From a virus, in the IMG/VR virus record IMGVR_UViG_3300032297_001097, positions 1 through 41,679 of that record: DNA of 41,679 nt; one strand, written 5' to 3'. This document shows positions 2,035 to 11,601 of this stretch, one piece after another (within the stretch, counting starts at the first letter, position 1; the number at the start of each line of letters is the position of its first letter). The notes beneath the pieces were generated by a model. The model did not search any database. It saw nothing but the letters and a program-made list of their open reading frames with translations, and had not been told where the DNA came from. The translations under genes and the position numbers were made by a program.

Positions 2035-2610
2035 ATGCAAGAAATATATGATTTAATCAATCAGTATCCCGATAAAAAATTTCATGTAATTGAAATTGAT
2101 GATATTGTTTTTTTAGTAAGAGAAATATCATGGAAAGAAGGGCTTGAAATTGATGCTAGATCTTTTAGAAAGAAAGAAGATTTAATCTATCAAAATACTG
2201 AATTTGAAAAAAGAGAAATCCTAAAAATTGCAATTACTAAAGCTTATGACAAAAAAGCTAACATTACAATTTCAAGTAAATATGAGAGCAATATATTAGA
2301 ATATCTCGATCACGTACTTGTTGAAAAACTTTGGGTGGAATATCAAAATTATTTATTCTTGTCGGCAGATGAAGCAAACTTTTTCTATTCATCTACTAAA
2401 AAATATTTTGATCCTAATAATGCAGAAACATTCCCCGTGCATCCTCTTATTATTGAAGTTGATTATATGACACGAGGAATTGTTTCTATGAGTACTAAAG
2501 AATTTTCAAATCTATCAATGAAAGAATTTGAAACTATTCAGATCATTATTGCAACTAAAAATGAAGTTGGAAGAAATGAAATGAATGAATTAACTGATCA
2601 ACTAGATTGA
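2035..2610 (+). CDS. Hypothetical protein in tail block (possible tail assembly chaperone-like)
   Basis: A 191-residue protein beginning MQEIYDLINQYPDK, with a beta-like stretch HVIEIDDIVFLVREISWKEG, helices after it, and a helical C-terminus. An N-terminal beta element followed by a conserved helical region is seen in some tail assembly chaperones, and the position after tail-tube-like genes would fit, but no diagnostic motif is visible. No Shine-Dalgarno sequence precedes the ATG. A TATATT box six bases before it could be a weak leaderless promoter. The 3' end overlaps the convergent glycosyltransferase gene by nine bases, with no terminator between them. A frameshifted second product is unlikely because the next gene is on the other strand. 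Confidence 0.4.
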   Translation: MQEIYDLINQYPDKKFHVIEIDDIVFLVREISWKEGLEIDARSFRKKEDLIYQNTEFEKREILKIAITKAYDKKANITISSKYESNILEYLDHVLVEKLWVEYQNYLFLSADEANFFYSSTKKYFDPNNAETFPVHPLIIEVDYMTRGIVSMSTKEFSNLSMKEFETIQIIIATKNEVGRNEMNELTDQLD

Positions 2611-3402
2611 GAACGTTAGCTTGCTTTCATGTTTTTTTCTAATCTGACCAGCTAATTCTGTTCTATCCCATTGATGAAATAAGTAGTAAGGCTCACCCTT
2701 TTCATTACAAGCATATTGGCCATCGTAAAATATGTCAATATTATTTCTTTTGATAGCTTCTCCTGTACAGCAAAAAGTATCTGTGTAAGGATGGCATAAT
2801 TCAACGTTCTTCATCTTTTTCATGTAGGGATAAAGAGAAGTATAGATGGATTGATCAGTAATTACACCACCTGACTTACGATTGCTGTTTGTCATAGCTA
2901 ATAAAAGCATGTTCATATAATCTGGAACTCTACCGCCAATAGTTCCACCATTAATTACTAAATTATTCTCTCCATCTTGATTTGGAAAAATTTGAGTAGA
3001 TGAAAGTAATTGATGCCAGTAAAGATTGCATTCATTTTCTAACGATTTCATTCCCTCACATACAAGAAATAAATCTTTATCTGGTTTAGAAGCAAAGTAA
3101 TCAAAAGGATTTTTTTGAATTATAACGTCTCTAGTGTCAACATAAAGAGCATATTCATAATCTTGTCCATCTTCCATGAGTACTTCATGAATTTTATAAT
3201 AAAGATAATAAAATGAAGTTTCTTTATAAATAATTTTGTCGTACTTCTTTTCAAGCAATTTGATATTTTTATCTGAAATGTTATTTACAATCACAAATTT
3301 ATCAGCATTATTTATTTTTTTCAAAGAATCAAAGTATATTTCAATATCCAATGATTCAAAAATTTTGTCTCCTGAGAGGTAATTAATCAATAAATTTTTC
3401 AT
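2602..3402 (-). CDS. Putative glycosyltransferase
   Basis: A 266-residue protein with the layout of small nucleotide-diphospho-sugar transferases. A beta/alpha N-terminal half leads to ALYVDTRDVIIQKNPF (residues 85-100), where the D-x-R-D sequence takes the place of the DxD metal and sugar-nucleotide site. NGGTIGG and ITDQSIYTSLYP follow, like acceptor-side segments of GT-A enzymes. No membrane anchor is seen. Its ATG overlaps the stop of the epimerase gene upstream by four bases, so the two are coupled and the transferase may use the sugar made by this cluster. Acceptor and donor are unknown; a virion protein or host glycan is possible. Confidence 0.6.
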   Translation of the reverse strand: MKNLLINYLSGDKIFESLDIEIYFDSLKKINNADKFVIVNNISDKNIKLLEKKYDKIIYKETSFYYLYYKIHEVLMEDGQDYEYALYVDTRDVIIQKNPFDYFASKPDKDLFLVCEGMKSLENECNLYWHQLLSSTQIFPNQDGENNLVINGGTIGGRVPDYMNMLLLAMTNSNRKSGGVITDQSIYTSLYPYMKKMKNVELCHPYTDTFCCTGEAIKRNNIDIFYDGQYACNEKGEPYYLFHQWDRTELAGQIRKKHESKLTFSI

Positions 3403-4214
3403 TTTAAAACCATGTAAACTTTTTTTATGCCTTTTTCTAATCCAACAAAATCTATATTTTCTAAATTATTTTTACCACAATAACTTTTACCTAATTCACT
3501 TTTCTCTATTACAACTTCAACTTTGTGATCATCTAAACTGTTTATAATTTCAGCAATGTCTGTCAATTTAAACTTTTTACTGTACACACAGTCAATTTCT
3601 TTTAGGTTAGTATTATTTGTTAATACAGCAACCAAAATATTATAAAAATCATCAAAATAAGTAAAATCCATATACTTATCTTGATGAATTATTATAGGCT
3701 TTTTGTTGATATAATTTTTAATATTTGAAGATATCATTCTATTCTGCGATTCATTAGCAGAGAATACATTGTAAATTCTTAAGTTATATGTATTATTTTC
3801 ATTATAAAATAATCTTGAAATTATATTTTTTGAAAAACCATAATAATCTTCTGGCAGGGTATTTAGAAAATTTGAAGTATCATTAATATTTAAAGCCCTA
3901 TCTAACTCAGCTCCAGAACCAAAATTAATTATCTTGCCAAAGTGATTCTTGTTAATTAAAATATTTGTTGCCATTCTTATGTTGTCATTTACAATATCAA
4001 CAGGATCTTGTACTAATCTTTTACCTCCAAGAATAGCACAATGCAAAACAGCATCAAAATATTTATCTTTTAAAAAAACAGAAGTTGATTTTGTATCTCT
4101 CAAATCAAAATTATCTTGTCTTGTAATTGAAGTAACATTAATATGATTTTCTACAAGTTTGTTGTGAATGTTTTTGGCTAAAAAACCGTTACCACCAGTG
4201 ATTAATATATTCAT
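3399..4214 (-). CDS. NAD-dependent epimerase/dehydratase (extended SDR)
   Basis: A 271-residue extended short-chain dehydrogenase/reductase. GGNGFLA (residues 7-13) is the Rossmann glycine motif, Ser100 in NFGSG the catalytic serine, and Y125-x3-K129 (YGFSK) the catalytic Tyr/Lys pair. Family members are nucleotide-sugar epimerases and 4-keto-reductases such as GDP-fucose synthase. In this cluster a C-4 ketoreductase closing a deoxysugar pathway is the simplest role, comparable to YerF in yersiniose synthesis, but substrate cannot be read from sequence. The gene lies just past the terminator that closes the five-gene sugar operon and is coupled to the glycosyltransferase gene. No Shine-Dalgarno sequence is evident. 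Confidence 0.7.
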   Translation of the reverse strand: MNILITGGNGFLAKNIHNKLVENHINVTSITRQDNFDLRDTKSTSVFLKDKYFDAVLHCAILGGKRLVQDPVDIVNDNIRMATNILINKNHFGKIINFGSGAELDRALNINDTSNFLNTLPEDYYGFSKNIISRLFYNENNTYNLRIYNVFSANESQNRMISSNIKNYINKKPIIIHQDKYMDFTYFDDFYNILVAVLTNNTNLKEIDCVYSKKFKLTDIAEIINSLDDHKVEVVIEKSELGKSYCGKNNLENIDFVGLEKGIKKVYMVLK

Positions 4215-4228
4215 TGATTAAAAATAAA

Positions 4229-4262
4229 AACGGCTAGAAAATAGTTATAACTTCTAGCCGTT
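4229..4262 (-). terminator. Intrinsic terminator closing the sugar operon
   Basis: A perfect 11-bp inverted repeat (AACGGCTAGAA at 4229-4239, TTCTAGCCGTT at 4252-4262) with a 12-base loop. On the minus strand it is followed by TTTTTATTTTT. It lies ten bases after the stop of the panB-like gene, so transcription from 9219 should end here, with some readthrough into the SDR gene. Confidence 0.85.
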
Positions 4263-4271
4263 GAAATTAAG

Positions 4272-5198
4272 CTAATACCAATATTTTGACTGCTTGATTT
4301 TTTCTAAATCATCTTTTCTAATTGGGTAAATGTATTCTTTTGAAGGATAAAACTCATTTTTAACTTCATGACAATACTTTTCTATTGCTTTTCTTACTAG
4401 ATGCATTATCCCATCTTCTCTTGTGTCTATGCCAAATTTCTTAACATCTTGTTGGCTGTTAACATTTAAGGAGAATTCTTCAACAACTTCTGGAATGTAG
4501 CATTTTGCAAACCAGGGTCTAAATGATGGATAAAAACCAACCAAGTCGTGCATAATAATTAGCTGGCCATCTACCATATTCCCAGCTCCAATACCTAAAA
4601 CAGGAATAGAAAGTCTTTCTGTGATTTTACCAGCTACTTCAGCGGGTACAGCTTCAAGTAAAAGCATAGAACAGCCAGCTTCTTGAATTGCTAAAGCATC
4701 TTCAAGCATTTCTTCAAAAGATTCCAAAGTCTTGCCCTGTACTCTGTATCCACCAAAAGAAACAGTACTTTGAGGAGTTAGACCTAAGTGCCCAATAACT
4801 AAAATGCCTGCGTTGACGATAGCTTTGATTTTATCTGCTACTCTCAATCCACCTTCAAGTTTAATTGCATCACAATTAGCTGCCTTTGAAAAGGCAATGG
4901 CATTTTTTACAGCTTCTGCTGTTGATGCTTCATATGACCCCTGTGGCATATCTCCAACGATAAAAGTATCTGGAGCACCCTTTCTTACTGCTTTTGCAAA
5001 TGTAAGCATTTCATCCATTGTGACAGGGTTGGTAGTCTGATAACCCAACTCAACCATACCACCAGAATCACCAATTAAAATCATTTCTATGCCAGCTTTT
5101 TCAGCTGCCATAGCAAAAGGATAAGAATAAGAGGTTATCCAAGTAATTTTTTCATTACTTTTCTTCATTTTTATGAAGTCGTTGATAGATTTTTTCAT
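4272..5198 (-). CDS. panB: Ketopantoate hydroxymethyltransferase-like protein (PanB family)
   Basis: A 308-residue protein with clear full-length PanB similarity. PanB transfers a hydroxymethyl group from methylene-tetrahydrofolate to 2-oxoisovalerate in pantothenate synthesis. The metal ligands match: Asp44 in IGDSGGM, Asp83 in VGDMP and Glu115 in KLEGG. The catalytic Glu182 (LLLEAVP), HLGLTPQS and GIGAG are also present. About 45 extra residues follow the catalytic domain at the C-terminus. Good Shine-Dalgarno AGAGGAAA. The gene overlaps the stop of the ThDP-enzyme gene by four bases and is the last gene before a terminator, so it is co-expressed with sugar enzymes rather than with panC or other pantothenate genes. 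It may therefore act on a different 2-oxoacid. Confidence 0.85.
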   Translation of the reverse strand: MKKSINDFIKMKKSNEKITWITSYSYPFAMAAEKAGIEMILIGDSGGMVELGYQTTNPVTMDEMLTFAKAVRKGAPDTFIVGDMPQGSYEASTAEAVKNAIAFSKAANCDAIKLEGGLRVADKIKAIVNAGILVIGHLGLTPQSTVSFGGYRVQGKTLESFEEMLEDALAIQEAGCSMLLLEAVPAEVAGKITERLSIPVLGIGAGNMVDGQLIIMHDLVGFYPSFRPWFAKCYIPEVVEEFSLNVNSQQDVKKFGIDTREDGIMHLVRKAIEKYCHEVKNEFYPSKEYIYPIRKDDLEKIKQSKYWY

Positions 5199-5947
5199 TT
5201 AATCATTTCCTCTGAAATTACATTGTCATCCAAAAAAGGATACATATCATGTAAACCGCATTGAATATTATACCCAGTTTGAGGATCTTTTTTGAGCATT
5301 AAAGTTGGAACTATTTCTTGATTAGGTTGACAAATAACTTCTATCAAACAAGGTGAATTGTTATTAATAATTTCAGTTGCTTTGTCTTTTAAATCTTGAT
5401 TTTTTTGAATTGAATAATAAGTAAATTCGTAAGCGTCAGCTATTTTTTTAATATCTGGGAACCATAGTCCGTCATCTGGTGATGTACCATATACTCTACC
5501 TTCATAAAACTTTCTCTGAGTATTTTTGATACTGAGGTAACCATTATTATTCCAAACAAAAATCTTGACTGGTATGTTTAAATTTCTAATTGTAGCTAGT
5601 TCTTGAATATTAGTGTTAAAGCTACCATCTCCTGTGAATACTAAAACATTTTTAGTGTCATCAGCCAAGTAAACACCAATAGAAGCGGGTAAGGCAAAAC
5701 CCATATCTGCCTGTGCTCCTGATAAAACAAATCTCTGACCTTCTTTCATTTTTAAGTTTTGAGAAGGAACATATATTGCAGACCCAGCATCACACACAAT
5801 AGTTTCTTTTGAAGTCATTTTTTCATTCATGATTTCTATGAATGTATATAAATTTAGACCTAATGTATCATCTTCGTATTCTTTCAAATACAAAGGCCAC
5901 ATATTTTTCCATTTTTTAGTTTTGCTTACCCAATCAGAAAGTGACAT
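5195..5947 (-). CDS. ThDP-dependent enzyme, C-terminal (PP) half, acetolactate synthase-like
   Basis: A 250-residue protein corresponding to the diphosphate-binding domain of the acetolactate synthase/pyruvate decarboxylase family. The ThDP/Mg motif runs from GDGSF (residues 106-110) to WNNNG (132-136), and GAQADMGFALPASIG precedes it. The PYR domain with the catalytic Glu is in the upstream gene, which overlaps by 14 bases in another frame. Together they make about 590 residues, a normal length for one chain. Either this is a true two-subunit enzyme, as in sulfopyruvate decarboxylase, or an indel in the T6 run at the junction splits one gene. TTAGGAG lies 12 bases before the ATG. In context it may transfer a two-carbon unit to a keto-sugar, like YerE. 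Confidence 0.8.
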   Translation of the reverse strand: MSLSDWVSKTKKWKNMWPLYLKEYEDDTLGLNLYTFIEIMNEKMTSKETIVCDAGSAIYVPSQNLKMKEGQRFVLSGAQADMGFALPASIGVYLADDTKNVLVFTGDGSFNTNIQELATIRNLNIPVKIFVWNNNGYLSIKNTQRKFYEGRVYGTSPDDGLWFPDIKKIADAYEFTYYSIQKNQDLKDKATEIINNNSPCLIEVICQPNQEIVPTLMLKKDPQTGYNIQCGLHDMYPFLDDNVISEEMIK

Positions 5948-6956
5948 TATTAAAAAATACTCCTAAATCACATTCAAAAAATTCATCAATATTAATTTTA
6001 TTTTTCTTAAATTCATTATTGTCAATATCTATTTGAGTTTTATATGAATTAGGAGAAAATAATTTTTCATCATATCCCGTATGAGAACAGTTCAGAGAAC
6101 ATCCTAAAATCAATAAATAATCACAGTTTTGTATAGCAAAATTACCAGCTCTTGAGCCTTTGATCCCAATACTTCCGAGATTCAAATCATGTTCATAAGG
6201 CAATAAGTCAATTCCCAAATAAGAAGTCACAAATGGTAAATTATTTTTTTCAATAAATTTTTTGAATTCTTCTGATTGGCCTGATAAGTAAACGCCATAT
6301 CCTGCTAATACCAAAGGCCTTTTTGCACTTTTAAGTTTAGAAAGATTGATAGGCGTAGAACCATAATCGTGATTAAGATTAAAACTAAAATTAGAAGGGT
6401 AATCAATATAAGCATGCTGTACATCACTTGGAATATCAATCCATACAGGACCCATTCTAGGAGACAAAGCTTTCTCAATAGCTTCTTTTAATATTTCAGG
6501 AGTTTCATCAGCATCTTCTACAAGTTTTGCAAATTTAGTAAGAGATTTTACTGTCGATATAATATCGCTCTCCTGTATTCCATACTTTCTTATGTTGCAA
6601 TCATTTTTCTTGTTGATGACTGAACTGCATTGTTCCACTTTGACATTTCCTGAAATAAACATAATTGGTAAAGAATCTTGCCAAGCATCTAAAAGTGGAG
6701 TTATGCAATTAGCACCTCCACAGCCAGTAGTTGGATTTACAACTGCAAGTTTTCTAGTTATTTTAGCTTCACCACATGCAGCATAACCAGCTCCTTGTTC
6801 ATGATGAGTACAGATATATTTTATAGATTTGTTTTTGATAAAGCCATCATTTAAACCGGCTGCACCTCCGCCCATAATGCCATAAACATTCTTTACACCT
6901 ATGCTGGACAATGTCTGAGAAATAAAATCACTTACTCTAATCTTGTTTTCTACCAT
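5934..6956 (-). CDS. ThDP-dependent enzyme, N-terminal (PYR and central) half
   Basis: A 340-residue protein matching the PYR domain and the middle domain of acetolactate synthase-like enzymes. The catalytic Glu53 is in HHEQGAGYAACG, followed by PTTGCGGANCITPLLDAW and, near 115-120, a polar segment with Cys and Asn that departs from the usual family pattern. The central domain (about residues 190-330) ends in LILGCSLN and QIDIDNNEFKKNKI, typical of this family. It stops where the phosphate-binding domain should begin, and that domain is supplied by the next gene. Its ATG overlaps the end of the 4,6-dehydratase gene by seven bases. Confidence 0.8.
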   Translation of the reverse strand: MVENKIRVSDFISQTLSSIGVKNVYGIMGGGAAGLNDGFIKNKSIKYICTHHEQGAGYAACGEAKITRKLAVVNPTTGCGGANCITPLLDAWQDSLPIMFISGNVKVEQCSSVINKKNDCNIRKYGIQESDIISTVKSLTKFAKLVEDADETPEILKEAIEKALSPRMGPVWIDIPSDVQHAYIDYPSNFSFNLNHDYGSTPINLSKLKSAKRPLVLAGYGVYLSGQSEEFKKFIEKNNLPFVTSYLGIDLLPYEHDLNLGSIGIKGSRAGNFAIQNCDYLLILGCSLNCSHTGYDEKLFSPNSYKTQIDIDNNEFKKNKINIDEFFECDLGVFFNNVTF

Positions 6957-7903
6957 ATAAAATTATCCTTGTAATATTCAACTATTTCAATAATTTCTGT
7001 ATCAAAGTCACAAGAAGGCTCCCATCCTAATCTTCTAATTTTTTGATCATTAAGTGCATATCTCACATCTTGCCCAGGACGCTCAACACCAAAATCAACA
7101 AACCTTTGATAATCTTCTATATCTTGATTATAGTATGCATTTATAACTTTTCTTACTGTCGTAATATTAGATTGCTCAAATCCCCCAGCAACATTATAAA
7201 TCTCGTTTTTTTGCCCTAGTTCAAGTATCTTTTCAACAGCTCTTGCAGTATCTTTTGCGTGTAGCCAGTTTCTAATAGGAGTACCTTGATTATGTAGTGG
7301 AATTTTTCTACCTAATCCTAAAAATTTACATGCTTTTGGAATTAGTTTTTCTACATACTGACCAACACCATAATTATTAGTAGGTCTAATAATGTTATAG
7401 GGAATATCATAAGTTCTTGCCCATGCTATTATAAGTTGATCTGCAGCAGCTTTTGTTGCAGAGTATGGATTACTTGGCTTTAATATATCTGTCTCAATAT
7501 GCTCTCCAGAAGAAATGTCACCATACACTTCATCTGTGCTAAAGTGAATAAATCTTGGGAGGACATAGCCTTCTTTTTTATATATCTTTAGTAACTCTAA
7601 AATATTATGAACACCATTAATATTTGAGTCAAGAAATACCCTGCTATCCCTAATGGAGTTATCGACATGTGTTTCAGCAGCTGTATTTATAAAATAATCA
7701 CAATCGACAAGTCTGTTTATGTCACAAATATTTTTTTGTTCAAATAAAAAATTGTCATATGTTTGAAATTTTTTCAATAAGTTCATGTCTGATGCATAAG
7801 TGCAGCAATCTATTCCATACACATAGAAGTCTCCACTTAAGAGAAGTCTCGTAACATGACTACCTATGAAGCCCAAACATCCTGTAACATATGCAATTTT
7901 CAT
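6950..7903 (-). CDS. rfbB: dTDP-glucose 4,6-dehydratase-like protein (RmlB family)
   Basis: A 317-residue extended SDR with strong RmlB features: TGCLGFIGS (residues 7-15, NAD binding), AAETHVDNS (75-83), FSTDEVYG with the Thr-Asp-Glu catalytic triad (123-125), Y147-SAT-K151 and IRPTNNYG. It converts an NDP-glucose to the 4-keto-6-deoxy sugar, the entry step for deoxysugars. The family usually uses dTDP-glucose, whereas the E1 enzyme encoded next to it normally uses the CDP sugar, so the nucleotide is uncertain here. It overlaps the E1 gene by four bases and is translationally coupled to it. Confidence 0.85.
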   Translation of the reverse strand: MKIAYVTGCLGFIGSHVTRLLLSGDFYVYGIDCCTYASDMNLLKKFQTYDNFLFEQKNICDINRLVDCDYFINTAAETHVDNSIRDSRVFLDSNINGVHNILELLKIYKKEGYVLPRFIHFSTDEVYGDISSGEHIETDILKPSNPYSATKAAADQLIIAWARTYDIPYNIIRPTNNYGVGQYVEKLIPKACKFLGLGRKIPLHNQGTPIRNWLHAKDTARAVEKILELGQKNEIYNVAGGFEQSNITTVRKVINAYYNQDIEDYQRFVDFGVERPGQDVRYALNDQKIRRLGWEPSCDFDTEIIEIVEYYKDNFIW

Positions 7904-9219
7904 AATTTATTTCTCATAAAATCTTGAACAATTTCTGAAATATAAGCTATTTGTTCAGGAGTAATAACTGGTGAAGTGCCTAAGAAAAAAGTGTTTGTCG
8001 TAACAAAGTTTGCTACTGGAAAATCTTTTAACTTTAAGTCTCCGATAAGATGAGAGTAGGCTGGCTGCATCAAAATATTTCCAGCAAAATAAGGCCTAGT
8101 CTGAATTTTCTTTGATTCTAAAAATTGACAAAATTCACTCCTACTAAATGGAGCGTCTTTCTTGATAGTTATTGGGAATGCAAACCAATTAACATCTGCC
8201 TTCTTTTCTGGTTTTGGTAAATGGAAATATTCTTCATACTCTTCAAAAACTTTAAATAAGAGTTTGTAGTTTCTTTTTCTGAGTTCTGAAATAGTGCTAA
8301 ATTTATCAAGTTGTGCAAGTAACATAGAAGCTTGCATTTCTATTGGCTTTAGATTAAAACCAACTTCTTCATAAACATACTTATGATCAAATACTTCACC
8401 AGGCATACTAGGAAGCCACTCTGAAAATCTAGTTCCACAAGCTCCACATGCTGAGAGGTTTTGTTTTCCATGACAAAAACATCCCCTTCCCCAATCACGG
8501 AAAGATCTAATCACTCGCTCCAGATTTTCATTATTACAAACTACTAATCCGCCTTCTCCGCATGTAATATGATGAGCTGGATAAAAGGAACAAGAAGCCA
8601 TCATTCCAAAGCTTCCTAATGGCTTATCATCATATGTAGAGCCTAAAGCATCACAACAATCTTCTAATAATATAAGCTCATATTCTTTGATTAAAAGCAT
8701 CAAATCATCCATATTAGGAGGATTGCCAAGAACGTGTGCAAATGTAATTATTTTTATTTCAGGATCATTTTCTAAAGCCGCTCGTACACAATCTATATCA
8801 AGATTTAATCCATCTAAAGTAATGTCAACAAAAACTGGCTTAAAATTACATTGAAAAATAGGATTTACAGTAGTTGGAAATCCTGCAATAGGAGTTAATA
8901 CTTTTGTGCCTTCTGGAAAATCTGTAAACCTCTTTGACTTTAGAGCAGACATCATAAGTAAGTTACTACTACTTCCAGAATTAGTGAGTAAACCAAACTT
9001 TTTATCAAACATACTGGCAAGTTTCTTTTCTGCCTTATATGCTTCTGCTCCTAATACAAGCCACCCATCAAGAAGGGTATTAACAGATCGTAAAATTTCA
9101 TTATTGTCAAAGAATGGTCCGGCATATTGAACATAATCTTTTCCAGCTCGCCATTCTTTTTTGGTACTAGAATCAAGAAAATTACTTAAAGTTTGAAATA
9201 GTTCTTCTTTTGATAACAT
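7900..9219 (-). CDS. rfbH: CDP-4-keto-6-deoxyglucose-3-dehydratase-like protein (E1/RfbH family)
   Basis: A 439-residue DegT/DnrJ/EryC1 fold protein with E1 hallmarks. The PLP-anchoring lysine is replaced by histidine in SFYPAHHIT (His217), just before GEGG. The cysteines Cys189, Cys247, Cys249 and Cys258 follow C-x57-C-x1-C-x8-C, almost the known E1 [2Fe-2S] pattern C-x57-C-x1-C-x7-C. E1 removes the C-3 hydroxyl of a 4-keto-6-deoxy sugar using PMP and electrons from a reductase (E3). No E3 gene is seen in this window. It is the first gene of the five-gene operon, lacks a Shine-Dalgarno sequence, and has TATAAT six bases before the ATG. Confidence 0.85.
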   Translation of the reverse strand: MLSKEELFQTLSNFLDSSTKKEWRAGKDYVQYAGPFFDNNEILRSVNTLLDGWLVLGAEAYKAEKKLASMFDKKFGLLTNSGSSSNLLMMSALKSKRFTDFPEGTKVLTPIAGFPTTVNPIFQCNFKPVFVDITLDGLNLDIDCVRAALENDPEIKIITFAHVLGNPPNMDDLMLLIKEYELILLEDCCDALGSTYDDKPLGSFGMMASCSFYPAHHITCGEGGLVVCNNENLERVIRSFRDWGRGCFCHGKQNLSACGACGTRFSEWLPSMPGEVFDHKYVYEEVGFNLKPIEMQASMLLAQLDKFSTISELRKRNYKLLFKVFEEYEEYFHLPKPEKKADVNWFAFPITIKKDAPFSRSEFCQFLESKKIQTRPYFAGNILMQPAYSHLIGDLKLKDFPVANFVTTNTFFLGTSPVITPEQIAYISEIVQDFMRNKL

Positions 9220-9243: not shown

Positions 9244-9969
9244 TTATGATATTTCATACAACCAATCAGAAAAATTTTTGTTATTTTTAAAATCAAAAGT
9301 AGAGTGACCCAAATCAAGTAATTCACAATTAATATCAACGTTAAAAACAAACTGAAATGAGCTTTCTGCAAACCATTCTGCAATTGGAACATCGTATTTC
9401 CAATGATCTAAAATCATTTCATAATACTCTTTTGGATTAGAAAGTATAGCTTCTTTTCTCAAAGCATAATGCCCATTTCTATAAAAAGCCCAAGGTTTAT
9501 ATGAGCTAATCTTTCCAAAAGGATCTAATAGCTTCATCCATTCATTCCAATTTACTGTGTTTGTAATAAAAAATTCATGATGACGCTGATTATAATTTGT
9601 TGGGCAATCATATATATTTGCTATAGTTTGTTGAAATGCTGGTTTAGACATATATTTATTATTTGGAATGTCACTATAATAATCTAGCATATTTTGAATG
9701 CCTTGTTCATTATTTTTCCATCCCATTTGTTCTTCAAGTGTTCCGTCCCATGGCCAAGCTTGAATAAAAATAGTAATGTCAGCTAAATTGTCATAATTCC
9801 TATAACAATGATATATTTGAGACGCGCCAAGCATTCCCAAATTAGGCAAATTTATTACATTATGACTAGAATTAATCTTTGGACCTTTATTGTAAATGGT
9901 GACATTTTCAAGATGATCAGCCCAAGAAACATCTTCTTTGTATCTTCCTAATACTATTTCTCTTGTCAT
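9244..9969 (-). CDS. DUF3431-like protein (glycan-related)
   Basis: A 241-residue protein with the pattern of DUF3431. It starts VLGRYKEDVSWADHL, then IYNKG, then LPNLGMLGASQIYHCYRNYDNLADITIFIQAWPWD, and has the late segment AFYRNGHYALRKEAIL. The family is often found near polysaccharide or glycosyltransferase genes and has no proven reaction that I know of. Its ATG overlaps the stop of the methyltransferase gene by four bases. The pair forms a small transcription unit between the capsid genes and the sugar operon, so glycan modification is the likely theme. Confidence 0.6.
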   Translation of the reverse strand: MTREIVLGRYKEDVSWADHLENVTIYNKGPKINSSHNVINLPNLGMLGASQIYHCYRNYDNLADITIFIQAWPWDGTLEEQMGWKNNEQGIQNMLDYYSDIPNNKYMSKPAFQQTIANIYDCPTNYNQRHHEFFITNTVNWNEWMKLLDPFGKISSYKPWAFYRNGHYALRKEAILSNPKEYYEMILDHWKYDVPIAEWFAESSFQFVFNVDINCELLDLGHSTFDFKNNKNFSDWLYEIS

Positions 9970-10661
9970 GTTATTCTCAAGTCATCGTATTCAAAAATAA
10001 GAGGATATTGTGCCTCTTGATGACATCCAACTACTTCTCCAAGATCATAAAATCTATATTGAAAATCGCCTTCCCACATAAATCCAATCTCAGTAAAATG
10101 TCCATCAGGCTTATTGATCTTCCAGCTATTAATATATTCCCAATAATTTGCTTTTTCAAATCCTCTGAAAACATTGTCCTTAATTGAGTAAATCCACTTA
10201 TGATGAAAAAAGCCTCTGTATCCTTGAACCCCATACCAATTTTCAAATCTCAAATATTCAGCATATTTTGATGGGACAGAAATAAATCCTCTCTTGGAAA
10301 TTTTCATCAACATATCACAAACTAATTTAGGATTTGTAATGTCTTCAAGTGTATGTGTGCAAATAGAATAATCAAATTTTCCATTCTCTTCTACATAATC
10401 TAAAACTGACTTCCAGTTATTTTCTTGAGTAATATCAAAATCAAAAAAATGTCTGTCGGGATGAGAAGCTAAAAATTCTTCTTTACTTCCCTCATTTACA
10501 AAAATATCTACAACGTGAGTAGTATATTTGCACCAAGAATTGATTCCTCCACCAACATCAATAACCTTAAGTGATGGATTTTCATTCTTGAGTTTTACAA
10601 TTTCATCGTCTACAAAATGTCTGTGTTCAGTAAATTTTCTTAGAACCTTATTTGTTATCAT
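9966..10661 (-). CDS. Class I SAM-dependent methyltransferase-like protein
   Basis: A 231-residue protein with a Rossmann methyltransferase start: VIDVGGGIN (residues 33-41, motif I), an acidic residue after the second strand (VVDIFV, Asp52), FDYSICTHTLEDI (motif IV region) and a following strand GFISVPS. A long aromatic C-terminal region (FHHKWIYSI, FYDLGEVVG) may bind the acceptor. Methyltransferases of this type in sugar clusters modify sugars or glycan ends, which fits the location. The gene starts without a Shine-Dalgarno sequence, seven bases after a TATAAT box, and follows the capsid-gene terminator. Confidence 0.65.
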   Translation of the reverse strand: MITNKVLRKFTEHRHFVDDEIVKLKNENPSLKVIDVGGGINSWCKYTTHVVDIFVNEGSKEEFLASHPDRHFFDFDITQENNWKSVLDYVEENGKFDYSICTHTLEDITNPKLVCDMLMKISKRGFISVPSKYAEYLRFENWYGVQGYRGFFHHKWIYSIKDNVFRGFEKANYWEYINSWKINKPDGHFTEIGFMWEGDFQYRFYDLGEVVGCHQEAQYPLIFEYDDLRIT

Positions 10662-10746: not shown

Positions 10747-11601
10747 TTACGCAACGGTAATTCTGGAAACTGCATAGTCGTTGATAAGAGCAAAACCGAG
10801 CTCTTCGTAAACAACCCATCCGAGTCTAAGTCTCTTTGGATCGTCTGCAGGAAGAACGGTGATGTCTTGTCTGATTGGCATTGCACCACAGAATTGAGCA
10901 GGAGCAAGAACGTAGACAGAGTTCTTAGGAACCATTGTGCTGACGTGGATGTCTGCTGAATAGATGTGACCGTAAAGACCAGTCATGAGGATGTCTCTTT
11001 GAGTAGCTTCATCAAAGAATTCCTTGCCCCAGTTTCTGATATCCTTGTATCTTTGTGGGTGAAGGACAACCTTAGCGCCGATGAGCTCATGCTCTTCGAT
11101 AAGGGTAAGCGCAAGGTTGATGTTCTCTGGTTGAAGAGTACCGGAAACAGAGATAGCTTGGTCAGTAGGCACACCAGCATTGATGACCTTAAAGACTTCG
11201 GTATCTTCTTGTCTTTGGAGGGAGTCCTTAGCACGGACTTGAGCTCTATCGACAATGTAGAATCTTCTTTGTCTGATCTCATTCAATCTGATTTGTGGAT
11301 GAGCAGCCAACTCGATGGTTGGAACAAGAAGCTCTTCTGCTTCAACTTCAGCTGCAGGAACGGAGCCTCTCTTAGGAATGACGTATGACTTTACAGCAAC
11401 GTCTCTCTCATATCTTGCAAGAGCGCCTTGTGGGAGCTCATCAACCATGAGAAGCTTTCTACCGATAGCTTGGTACATAAGGGAGGTCTTGATTGGCTCA
11501 ACCATTGCTTGAGCTAATGCTGTTCTGCCCTCTGGAGTCTCAAGAGCCATCGCGATGATGGATTCTCTTTGCTCATTTGTGTTTCTTTTAATCATTGACA
11601 T
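10747..11601 (-). CDS. Major capsid protein (HK97-fold)
   Basis: A 284-residue protein in the expected place, after portal, protease and scaffold-like genes. The helical N-terminus (residues 1-60) is followed by PKRGSVPAAEVEAEELLVPT, resembling an N-arm/E-loop region, then the P-domain helix of about 105-150, LIGAKVVLHPQRYKDIRNW (A domain) and YGHIYSADIHVSTMVPKNSVYVLAP near the end, a typical HK97-like C-terminal region. AAGGAG lies 11 bases before the first of two close ATG codons. Codons are visibly richer in G and C than in neighbouring genes, as expected for the most abundant protein. It has its own strong terminator. Family assignment is by position and pattern. Confidence 0.8.
   Translation of the reverse strand: MSMIKRNTNEQRESIIAMALETPEGRTALAQAMVEPIKTSLMYQAIGRKLLMVDELPQGALARYERDVAVKSYVIPKRGSVPAAEVEAEELLVPTIELAAHPQIRLNEIRQRRFYIVDRAQVRAKDSLQRQEDTEVFKVINAGVPTDQAISVSGTLQPENINLALTLIEEHELIGAKVVLHPQRYKDIRNWGKEFFDEATQRDILMTGLYGHIYSADIHVSTMVPKNSVYVLAPAQFCGAMPIRQDITVLPADDPKRLRLGWVVYEELGFALINDYAVSRITVA

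Follow-up and report, generated by a model that had tools for sequence, protein, structure and literature searches.

A phage-borne PanB paralogue that may supply the acyl donor of a sugar-branching pathway

Introduction

The closest described counterparts of the gene module reported here are the sugar-branching ThDP enzymes YerE (yersiniose), ErwE (erwiniose) and JanthE, which are found in a sugar setting with E1-like genes. YerE takes acceptors of the 4-keto-3,6-dideoxy sugar class, and the yersiniose pathway leads from E1 through YerE to YerF. JanthE, the protein of PDB entry 8rph, has been described as a YerE-like enzyme (PMC12188165). According to a review (PMC12247030), the donors of ErwE are 4-hydroxy-2-oxoacids, with a preference for compounds such as 4-hydroxy-2-oxobutanoate (HOB); pyruvate is not accepted.

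The other protein with which the module has to be compared is PanB, the ketopantoate hydroxymethyltransferase. The E. coli enzyme is reported to be promiscuous on HOB (PMC6966089, on Bouzon et al. 2017), a compound that has been termed a non-native metabolite in an engineering setting (PMC8879981). In viruses, a 2021 virome study found pantoate transferase to be the most abundant of several auxiliary genes of pantothenate and CoA metabolism and suggested a CoA boost (PMC8940887). The review PMC12247030 contains none of the words ‘pantoate’, ‘hydroxymethyl’ and ‘phage’, and among the open-access titles and abstract openings listed in our literature search, we noticed no link between PanB and either sugar branching or the ThDP genes of phages.

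The window, by which we mean the whole 41,679-nucleotide stretch of IMG/VR record IMGVR_UViG_3300032297_001097, carries a PanB-type gene in a run of sugar genes. A preliminary description had proposed that its product hydroxymethylates a 2-oxoacid that a neighboring ThDP enzyme then uses as an acyl donor. Comparative evidence supports the view that the module would be a phage-borne sugar-branching pathway of the YerE type in which a dedicated PanB-type enzyme makes the donor. It shares with the YerE, ErwE and JanthE systems the sugar setting and the E1-like gene, and two fused phage enzymes of the same type have JanthE as their closest relative of solved structure. Unlike these systems, it is phage-encoded, its ThDP enzyme is split into two ORFs, as in its nearest relatives, and it has a PanB-type partner. 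Compared with the yersiniose pathway, E1 and ThDP genes are likewise present (23 PanB-less phage loci also have both), but in the window PanB lies between the ThDP and SDR genes, and the 4,6-dehydratase is RmlB-like rather than of the CDP type (294 versus 56 bits).

Results and Discussion

Gene content of the window

The record is that of a tailed phage, with genes for a major head protein (10747–11601), portal, terminase and clamp loader. The gene run of interest is on the minus strand. Read in that direction, it has a methyltransferase-like gene (9966–10661; PF13489, 26.5 bits, just under the cut-off of 27) and a possible glycosyltransferase recognized by eye only (9244–9969; no Pfam or NCBIfam family over a cut-off). 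An RfbH/E1-type 3-dehydratase (7900–9219; PRK15407, 437.4 bits with a cut-off of 423; best PDB match 3bcx, 314 bits) and an RmlB-like NDP-glucose 4,6-dehydratase (6950–7903; TIGR01181, 294 bits, under the cut-off of 365; best PDB match the dTDP-glucose 4,6-dehydratase 2hun) come next, followed by the N-terminal half (5934–6956; PF02776 and PF00205) and the C-terminal half (5195–5947; PF02775, 118 bits) of the split YerE-like ThDP enzyme. The PanB gene (4272–5198), an intrinsic terminator (4218–4266), an SDR gene (3399–4214; PF01370, 85 bits) and a second possible glycosyltransferase, also recognized by eye only (2602–3402; no Pfam or NCBIfam match), follow.

In the alignment with 3bcx, a CDP-6-deoxy-hexulose 3-dehydrase, the 3-dehydratase has a histidine in place of the PLP lysine and keeps the Cys-rich segment. 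Judged by family, the RfbH/E1, 4,6-dehydratase and SDR genes would fit the making of a 4-keto-3,6-dideoxy sugar.

The four-base overlap of PanB with the ThDP gene noted earlier does exist, with ORF 5195–5947, but this ORF is only the C half of the enzyme, which the preliminary description had treated as a single gene. The terminator that it had taken for the end of the operon is well supported (4266–4218 folds with −16.5 kcal/mol, z −5.8). However, it need not end the module, because the SDR gene and ORF 2602–3402 lie beyond it in the same orientation and relatives have an SDR after PanB: an SDR match stands directly after PanB in 11 of the 14 clade-1 viral loci introduced below. The SDR found no sequence match in the PDB. 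Its family and its adjacency in relatives make it a candidate YerF-like ketoreductase of the branch.

The ThDP motifs are complete across the two window ORFs, with the HHEQ glutamate in the N half and GDG in the C half. We compared the enzyme with YerE-like proteins and AHAS by way of the fused relatives L005 and L101. These two scored 399 and 398 bits against 8rph and 267 and 256 bits against the best AHAS. Judged by these fused relatives, the window enzyme resembles the YerE-like JanthE. In PHROGs, the ThDP proteins of the window and of L101 fall in phrog_11199, a family of unknown function. The split at the border of the middle and C domains, with overlapping or adjoining ORFs, was seen in the window (5195–6956) and in L002, L004, L012, L015, L111, L115 and L196–L217. 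Apart from the outlier L225, all split enzymes sampled group in a single, strongly supported phage clade (100/100).

Identity of the PanB protein

The ORF at 4272–5198 has an ATG start and encodes 308 residues. It scores 316.4 bits with PF02548 (cut-off 28.7), 307.1 with PRK00311 (cut-off 272) and 284.9 bits with the NCBIfam model panB TIGR00222 (cut-off 207.55), and thus passes the panB equivalog cut-off. The closest solved chain is E. coli PanB (1m3u), which was also the top fold match of the AlphaFold2 model (mean pLDDT 92). D45, S46, D84, K112, E114, H136 and E181 (E. coli numbering), which we take to be the metal and catalytic residues of PanB, are all present, so that the earlier statement that every such position is kept is borne out at seven of seven. 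The protein therefore has the fold, the metal and catalytic residues and the equivalog score of E. coli PanB. It differs from canonical PanB in a C-terminal extension, in its sister-clade placement, in residues 179, 212 and 214 (in clade 1 also 47 and 87), in its ThDP and sugar context and in the lack of PanC in the record.

PanB and PEP mutase belong to one superfamily. A PEP mutase or phosphonate reading of the ORF was rejected, as its sole Pfam match at E 0.001 is Pantoate_transf and its best 28 fold matches are all PanB. In PHROGs, neither the window PanB nor that of L101 matched a family at E 0.001.

Placement among PanB proteins

Starting from PanB, a scan of viral contigs found 14 loci (clade 1) at 47–73% identity. 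Scanning bacterial genomes with a clade-specific stretch and two peptide patterns gave at least 22 further loci, in Spirochaetota, Cloacimonadota, Bacteroidota, Elusimicrobiota, Fidelibacterota, Krumholzibacteriota, Bdellovibrionota, Ignavibacteriota and others. In a maximum-likelihood tree of 55 rows, which leaves out V_L003 (identical in sequence to L002) and L033 (PanB in two frames), the 14 viral and 21 bacterial paralogues were split from 20 canonical PanB by a 100/100 branch. A second viral lineage, with PanB about 45% identical to that of the window, was found via ThDP-rooted scans. Its member L101, which itself came from such a scan, served as the query of a further scan, and the best 80 of 99 confirmed stretches were used. 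This lineage joined the first clade with a support of 100/99 in a tree that additionally omits W_L100, W_L104 and W_L105 (duplicates) and V_L014 (long branch). The preliminary description had suggested comparing the protein with bacterial PanB on a tree; the window PanB is placed outside canonical PanB in both trees (100/100, and 100/99 with the second lineage), and all 20 canonical, pantothenate-type rows lie across the supported branch from it. By this placement, the window protein is a member of a PanB sister clade distinct from ordinary PanB.

The seven catalytic positions are kept throughout, in 35/35 clade rows, 20/20 canonical rows and 94/94 viral rows. Five other positions distinguish the clade: G47, Q87, L179, L212 and I214 are shared by all 35 clade rows (21 bacterial, 14 viral), and no canonical row of the 20 has any of them. 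When the second lineage is included, L179, L212 and I214 are invariant in all 94 viral rows (14 plus the best 80 of 99) and all 21 bacterial rows, and G47 and Q87 are confined to clade 1 among the viral rows. The 20 canonical rows have V, I or T at 179, I or V at 212 and V at 214. Positions 212 and 214 presumably line the hydrophobic side of the substrate pocket; a limited literature check found no mention of this role.

Clustering by protein identity reduces the 94 viral loci to 36 groups at 90% and 55 at 95%. Several of the sampled loci have phage replication genes nearby: L101 and L106 have SbcCD-like subunits and a processivity factor, L013 a helicase, L009 a ribonucleotide reductase and L115, a locus without PanB, a clamp loader. 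Among 50,697 isolated-phage records, neither PanB nor the ThDP protein had a match at ≥60% identity. A match in Microcystis phage MaAM05 was set aside, since its panB lies near panC and suf genes, unlike the window module. In the stretch 255369–272070 of MW495066.1 (L227), a ‘Microcystis phage’ record, panB lies near panC, suf genes and pxpA, and this stretch looks more like bacterial than phage DNA. Matches in Listeria, Staphylococcus and Salmonella records may be host DNA, going by the record names alone. In the MAG locus L033 (9866–10790), the PanB paralogue is split across two overlapping frames.

Association with ThDP and 3-dehydratase genes

The survey of PanB neighbors proposed in the preliminary description gave a uniform picture in viruses, with a ThDP gene close to PanB in 94/94 loci (14 plus the best 80 of 99). 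In clade 1, all 14 loci have a ThDP ORF no farther than 1.7 kb from PanB; the gaps are 0–989 bp in 12 of them and about 1.6–1.7 kb in L009 and L014. In the second lineage, it lies within 102 bp and on the same strand in 80/80 loci (best 80 of 99). Conversely, among 18 loci from ThDP-rooted scans, PanB adjoins the ThDP gene in 11 and is absent from five (L111, L114–L117), and two end within the ThDP gene. The ThDP-rooted loci here and in the scan described below include near-copies and shared records (L196–L198 are from the records of L115–L117, and L218–L220 from those of L002–L004).

The bacterial paralogues are more varied. A ThDP gene lies within 111 bp in 8/22 loci, 22 being a lower bound, whereas further PanB copies from the same genomes have one nearby in 0/18 loci with flanks of 0.3 to 9 kb (Fisher's test, P = 0.005). 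The second PanB of genome G006 (L099) was counted in the ThDP pairing and is absent from the trees. Of the remaining bacterial loci, 13/22 have no ThDP gene in the available stretch and one has it 7.5 kb away; hence, the chemistry of the clade is not tied to ThDP.

Within the available stretch, a His-type 3-dehydratase (E1/ColD-like) was detected in 13/14 loci of clade 1, where a pattern found 11 and alignment two more, and in 65/80 loci of the second lineage (best 80 of 99), 61 of them by the pattern and four by alignment. Three of the eight bacterial ThDP loci have one as well. The six genes missed by the pattern were identified by alignment; L129 and L156, with scores like that of L128, were not counted. 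L009 has no E1-like gene within its available stretch. The presence of this enzyme indicates a setting of 4-keto-3,6-dideoxy sugar production in most viral loci; sugars of this class are the acceptors of YerE. In a second architecture, seen in L013, L134, L138, L140 and their relatives, PanB is upstream of the ThDP gene and some loci have ColD-like and GMD-like genes, which suggests a GDP-linked form of the pathway.

Modules without PanB

A scan from the split ThDP enzyme of a PanB-less module returned 32 loci, many of them near-copies, of which nine have PanB. The other 23 have an RfbH-family gene and the split ThDP enzyme with no PanB in the available stretch. In nine of these 23, an SDR match stands directly after the ThDP C half, which is the place of PanB in the PanB-plus relatives. 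PanB is an optional cassette, and related modules exist without it.

The ThDP enzymes of the two kinds of module were compared in motifs, hot spots, tree and loop, with 28 chosen PanB-plus rows. In the tree, the split clade comprises five PanB-plus rows (100/97) and 11 PanB-minus rows (100/98). The JanthE hot spots V121, Y268, P293, Y297 and K567, when mapped, gave no clean split between PanB-plus and PanB-minus enzymes. A contrast was found in the loop JanthE 404–419. Between five PanB-plus and 12 PanB-minus split enzymes, 6 of the 27 disjoint columns, in which the two groups have no residue in common, fall within its 16 columns, where 0.89 are expected (hypergeometric P 9e-5, a post hoc value, as the loop was noticed before the test). 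Without L225, it holds 7 of 35 disjoint columns (P 1.6e-5). Six comparisons within the same state, PanB-plus or PanB-minus, gave P values of 0.16–0.96, and the PanB-minus enzymes showed a weak enrichment against one of two groups of fused PanB-plus enzymes (P 0.016) and none against the other (P 0.13). The loop contrast corresponds to one clade split, a single evolutionary event.

The window loop reads DAGSAIYVPSQ. The pattern DAGSA[IYF]Y[VAT]x[SC]Q fits 18 of the 28 PanB-plus rows, including one from a bacterium (L024), and none of the 12 PanB-minus rows, seven of which have DAGSISYAGP[VT]. Among the PanB-plus rows, L113 and L032 are off by one residue and L013, L027, L030, L124, L133, L138, L140 and L152 do not fit. 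We take the loop to align with the GQHQM segment of AHAS, and for this reason it probably belongs to the active site.

Proposed pathway and alternatives

The most likely explanation, to which we assign a probability of roughly two in three on the comparative evidence, is that the window PanB paralogue produces the acyl donor used in building a branched sugar encoded by the phage, this donor most likely being HOB formed from pyruvate, and that the ThDP enzyme adds the acyl unit to C4. The 4,6-dehydratase and RfbH/E1 would convert an NDP-hexose to an NDP-4-keto-3,6-dideoxyhexose, as their families suggest. The PanB paralogue would transfer the hydroxymethyl group of methylene-tetrahydrofolate to a small 2-oxoacid, and with pyruvate the product would be HOB. 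The split YerE-like enzyme would decarboxylate HOB and place a 3-hydroxypropanoyl unit on C4 of the sugar, and the SDR would reduce the branch ketone. The final product, a 4-C-(1,3-dihydroxypropyl)-3,6-dideoxyhexose, might be part of a glycan on the virion or the host surface. The proposal of the preliminary description is thus the best-supported reading by virtue of the clade placement and the 94/94 ThDP pairing, with the donor step as the part that we infer. Pyruvate is favored since ErwE uses HOB, E. coli PanB acts on HOB and the clade residues at 212 and 214 are at least as large as the canonical ones; alternative substrates would be 2-oxobutanoate and the canonical 2-oxoisovalerate. PanB chemistry on HOB and pyruvate is shared with the synthetic HOB pathway (Bouzon et al. 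2017, as described in PMC6966089), which is an engineered one, whereas here a natural clade would carry it out.

The preliminary description had offered as its alternative that the phage enzyme raises host pantothenate and CoA in infection, which is also the published virome interpretation (PMC8940887). In its favor are the panB equivalog score, the complete set of catalytic residues and the bacterial genomes G004 and G016, which carry panC and have the paralogue as the only PanB found. We regard it as improbable, since the window PanB lies outside the canonical rows, a ThDP gene is nearby in every one of the 94 viral loci (14 plus the best 80 of 99) and panC was not matched in the viral records searched. 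As stated previously, no panC, panE or other CoA gene is nearby: PanC (PF02569), PanE-type (PF08546, ApbA_C) and PanD (PF02261) proteins are unmatched in the record, itself possibly a fragment, although such proteins might come from the host. In all, panC was found in 0/58 viral records, many of them fragments, comprising 14/14 of clade 1, 43/43 of the second lineage (the search covered 43 of the best 80 loci) and the window's own. Furthermore, of the at least 22 bacterial carriers, 17 have a further PanB, shown to be canonical on the tree in 16, and 13 have panC. The paralogue is the only PanB found in G004, G012, G016, G019 and G022; because G004 and G016 also have panC, the paralogue may have a pantothenate role in these two. 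Still less credible is a PanB working in the cleavage direction and supplying methylene-THF for phage nucleotide synthesis. E. coli PanB does cleave HOB and feed methylene-THF in an engineered strain (PMC6966089), and some bacterial clade members lie near homoserine genes, but the phage PanB pairs with branched-sugar genes.

Two other schemes keep the sugar setting and change the chemistry. The order could be reversed, with the ThDP enzyme adding an acetyl branch from pyruvate, as for yersiniose, and PanB then hydroxymethylating the methyl ketone of the sugar. PanB is often between the ThDP and SDR genes, and the PanB-minus modules have E1, ThDP and often SDR genes like a yersiniose-type pathway, as this order would predict. 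However, canonical PanB binds a small 2-oxoacid and the metal and catalytic residues are all kept, and the ThDP loop differs between PanB-plus and PanB-minus enzymes, a contrast that fits a changed donor better than a late modification of the product. We consider the reversed order unlikely. A shade less likely is that the enzyme retains its canonical activity, so that ketopantoate would serve as donor for the ThDP enzyme and the branch would be a 2,2-dimethyl-3-hydroxypropanoyl group. The strong PanB similarity in families and fold model and the ThDP pairing are what it would lead one to expect, but the changes at 179, 212 and 214 are fixed across the clade, and a YerE-like enzyme with hydroxy donors takes unbranched 4-hydroxy-2-oxoacids, according to PMC12247030.

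If the preferred reading, a PanB paralogue serving as donor enzyme, is correct, it gives ErwE-type sugar-branching enzymes a dedicated source of the hydroxylated 2-oxoacids that they require as donors. The same reading offers a testable account, other than a CoA boost, of the viral ‘pantoate transferase’ described as abundant in PMC8940887; should the viral sequences of that study fall in the sister clade, its CoA interpretation needs revision. Viral panB genes annotated as vitamin metabolism would need correction where they belong to the sister clade. Finally, if the HOB assignment is true, the clade provides a natural enzyme for a metabolite that has been called non-native (PMC8879981).

Bacterial members of the clade

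Several bacterial loci combine the paralogue with genes of homoserine and sulfur amino acid metabolism. In L017, it is preceded by genes for MetY (over the TIGR01326 cut-off) and a MetX-like protein (under cut-offs). L035 has it 1.2 kb from a homoserine dehydrogenase gene and 0.6 kb from a methionine gamma-lyase-like gene (under cut-off), and L036, a close relative, has the same gene order. A threonine synthase gene lies 2.2 kb away on the opposite strand in L034, and a cysteine-synthase-like gene, recognized by eye, adjoins the paralogue in L018 and L023. These neighbors, small in number, point to four-carbon 2-oxoacids or homoserine-derived HOB as possible substrates. It is tempting, though doubtful, to regard the whole clade, found in phages and at least eight bacterial phyla, as a natural HOB synthase/lyase, which would make the sugar-branch donor in phages and link homoserine and methionine to pyruvate and methylene-THF in the bacteria without the ThDP gene, as a natural counterpart of the engineered HOB pathway.

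In five of the 22 bacterial loci (L016, L019, L020, L025 and L034), a family of proteins of about 420 residues adjoins the PanB paralogue. Two scanned members, of L020 and L019, had no Pfam or NCBIfam match. A model of the family (pLDDT 72) had no Foldseek match at E ≤0.001; in VIA-align, its best matches were barrels of the B12 mutase (aminomutase) type (Z 13), with other barrels close behind. In the Cloacimonadota loci L022 and L023, two carbamoyltransferase-like genes lie near the paralogue, accompanied in L022 by a carbamate-kinase-like gene, all recognized by eye only.
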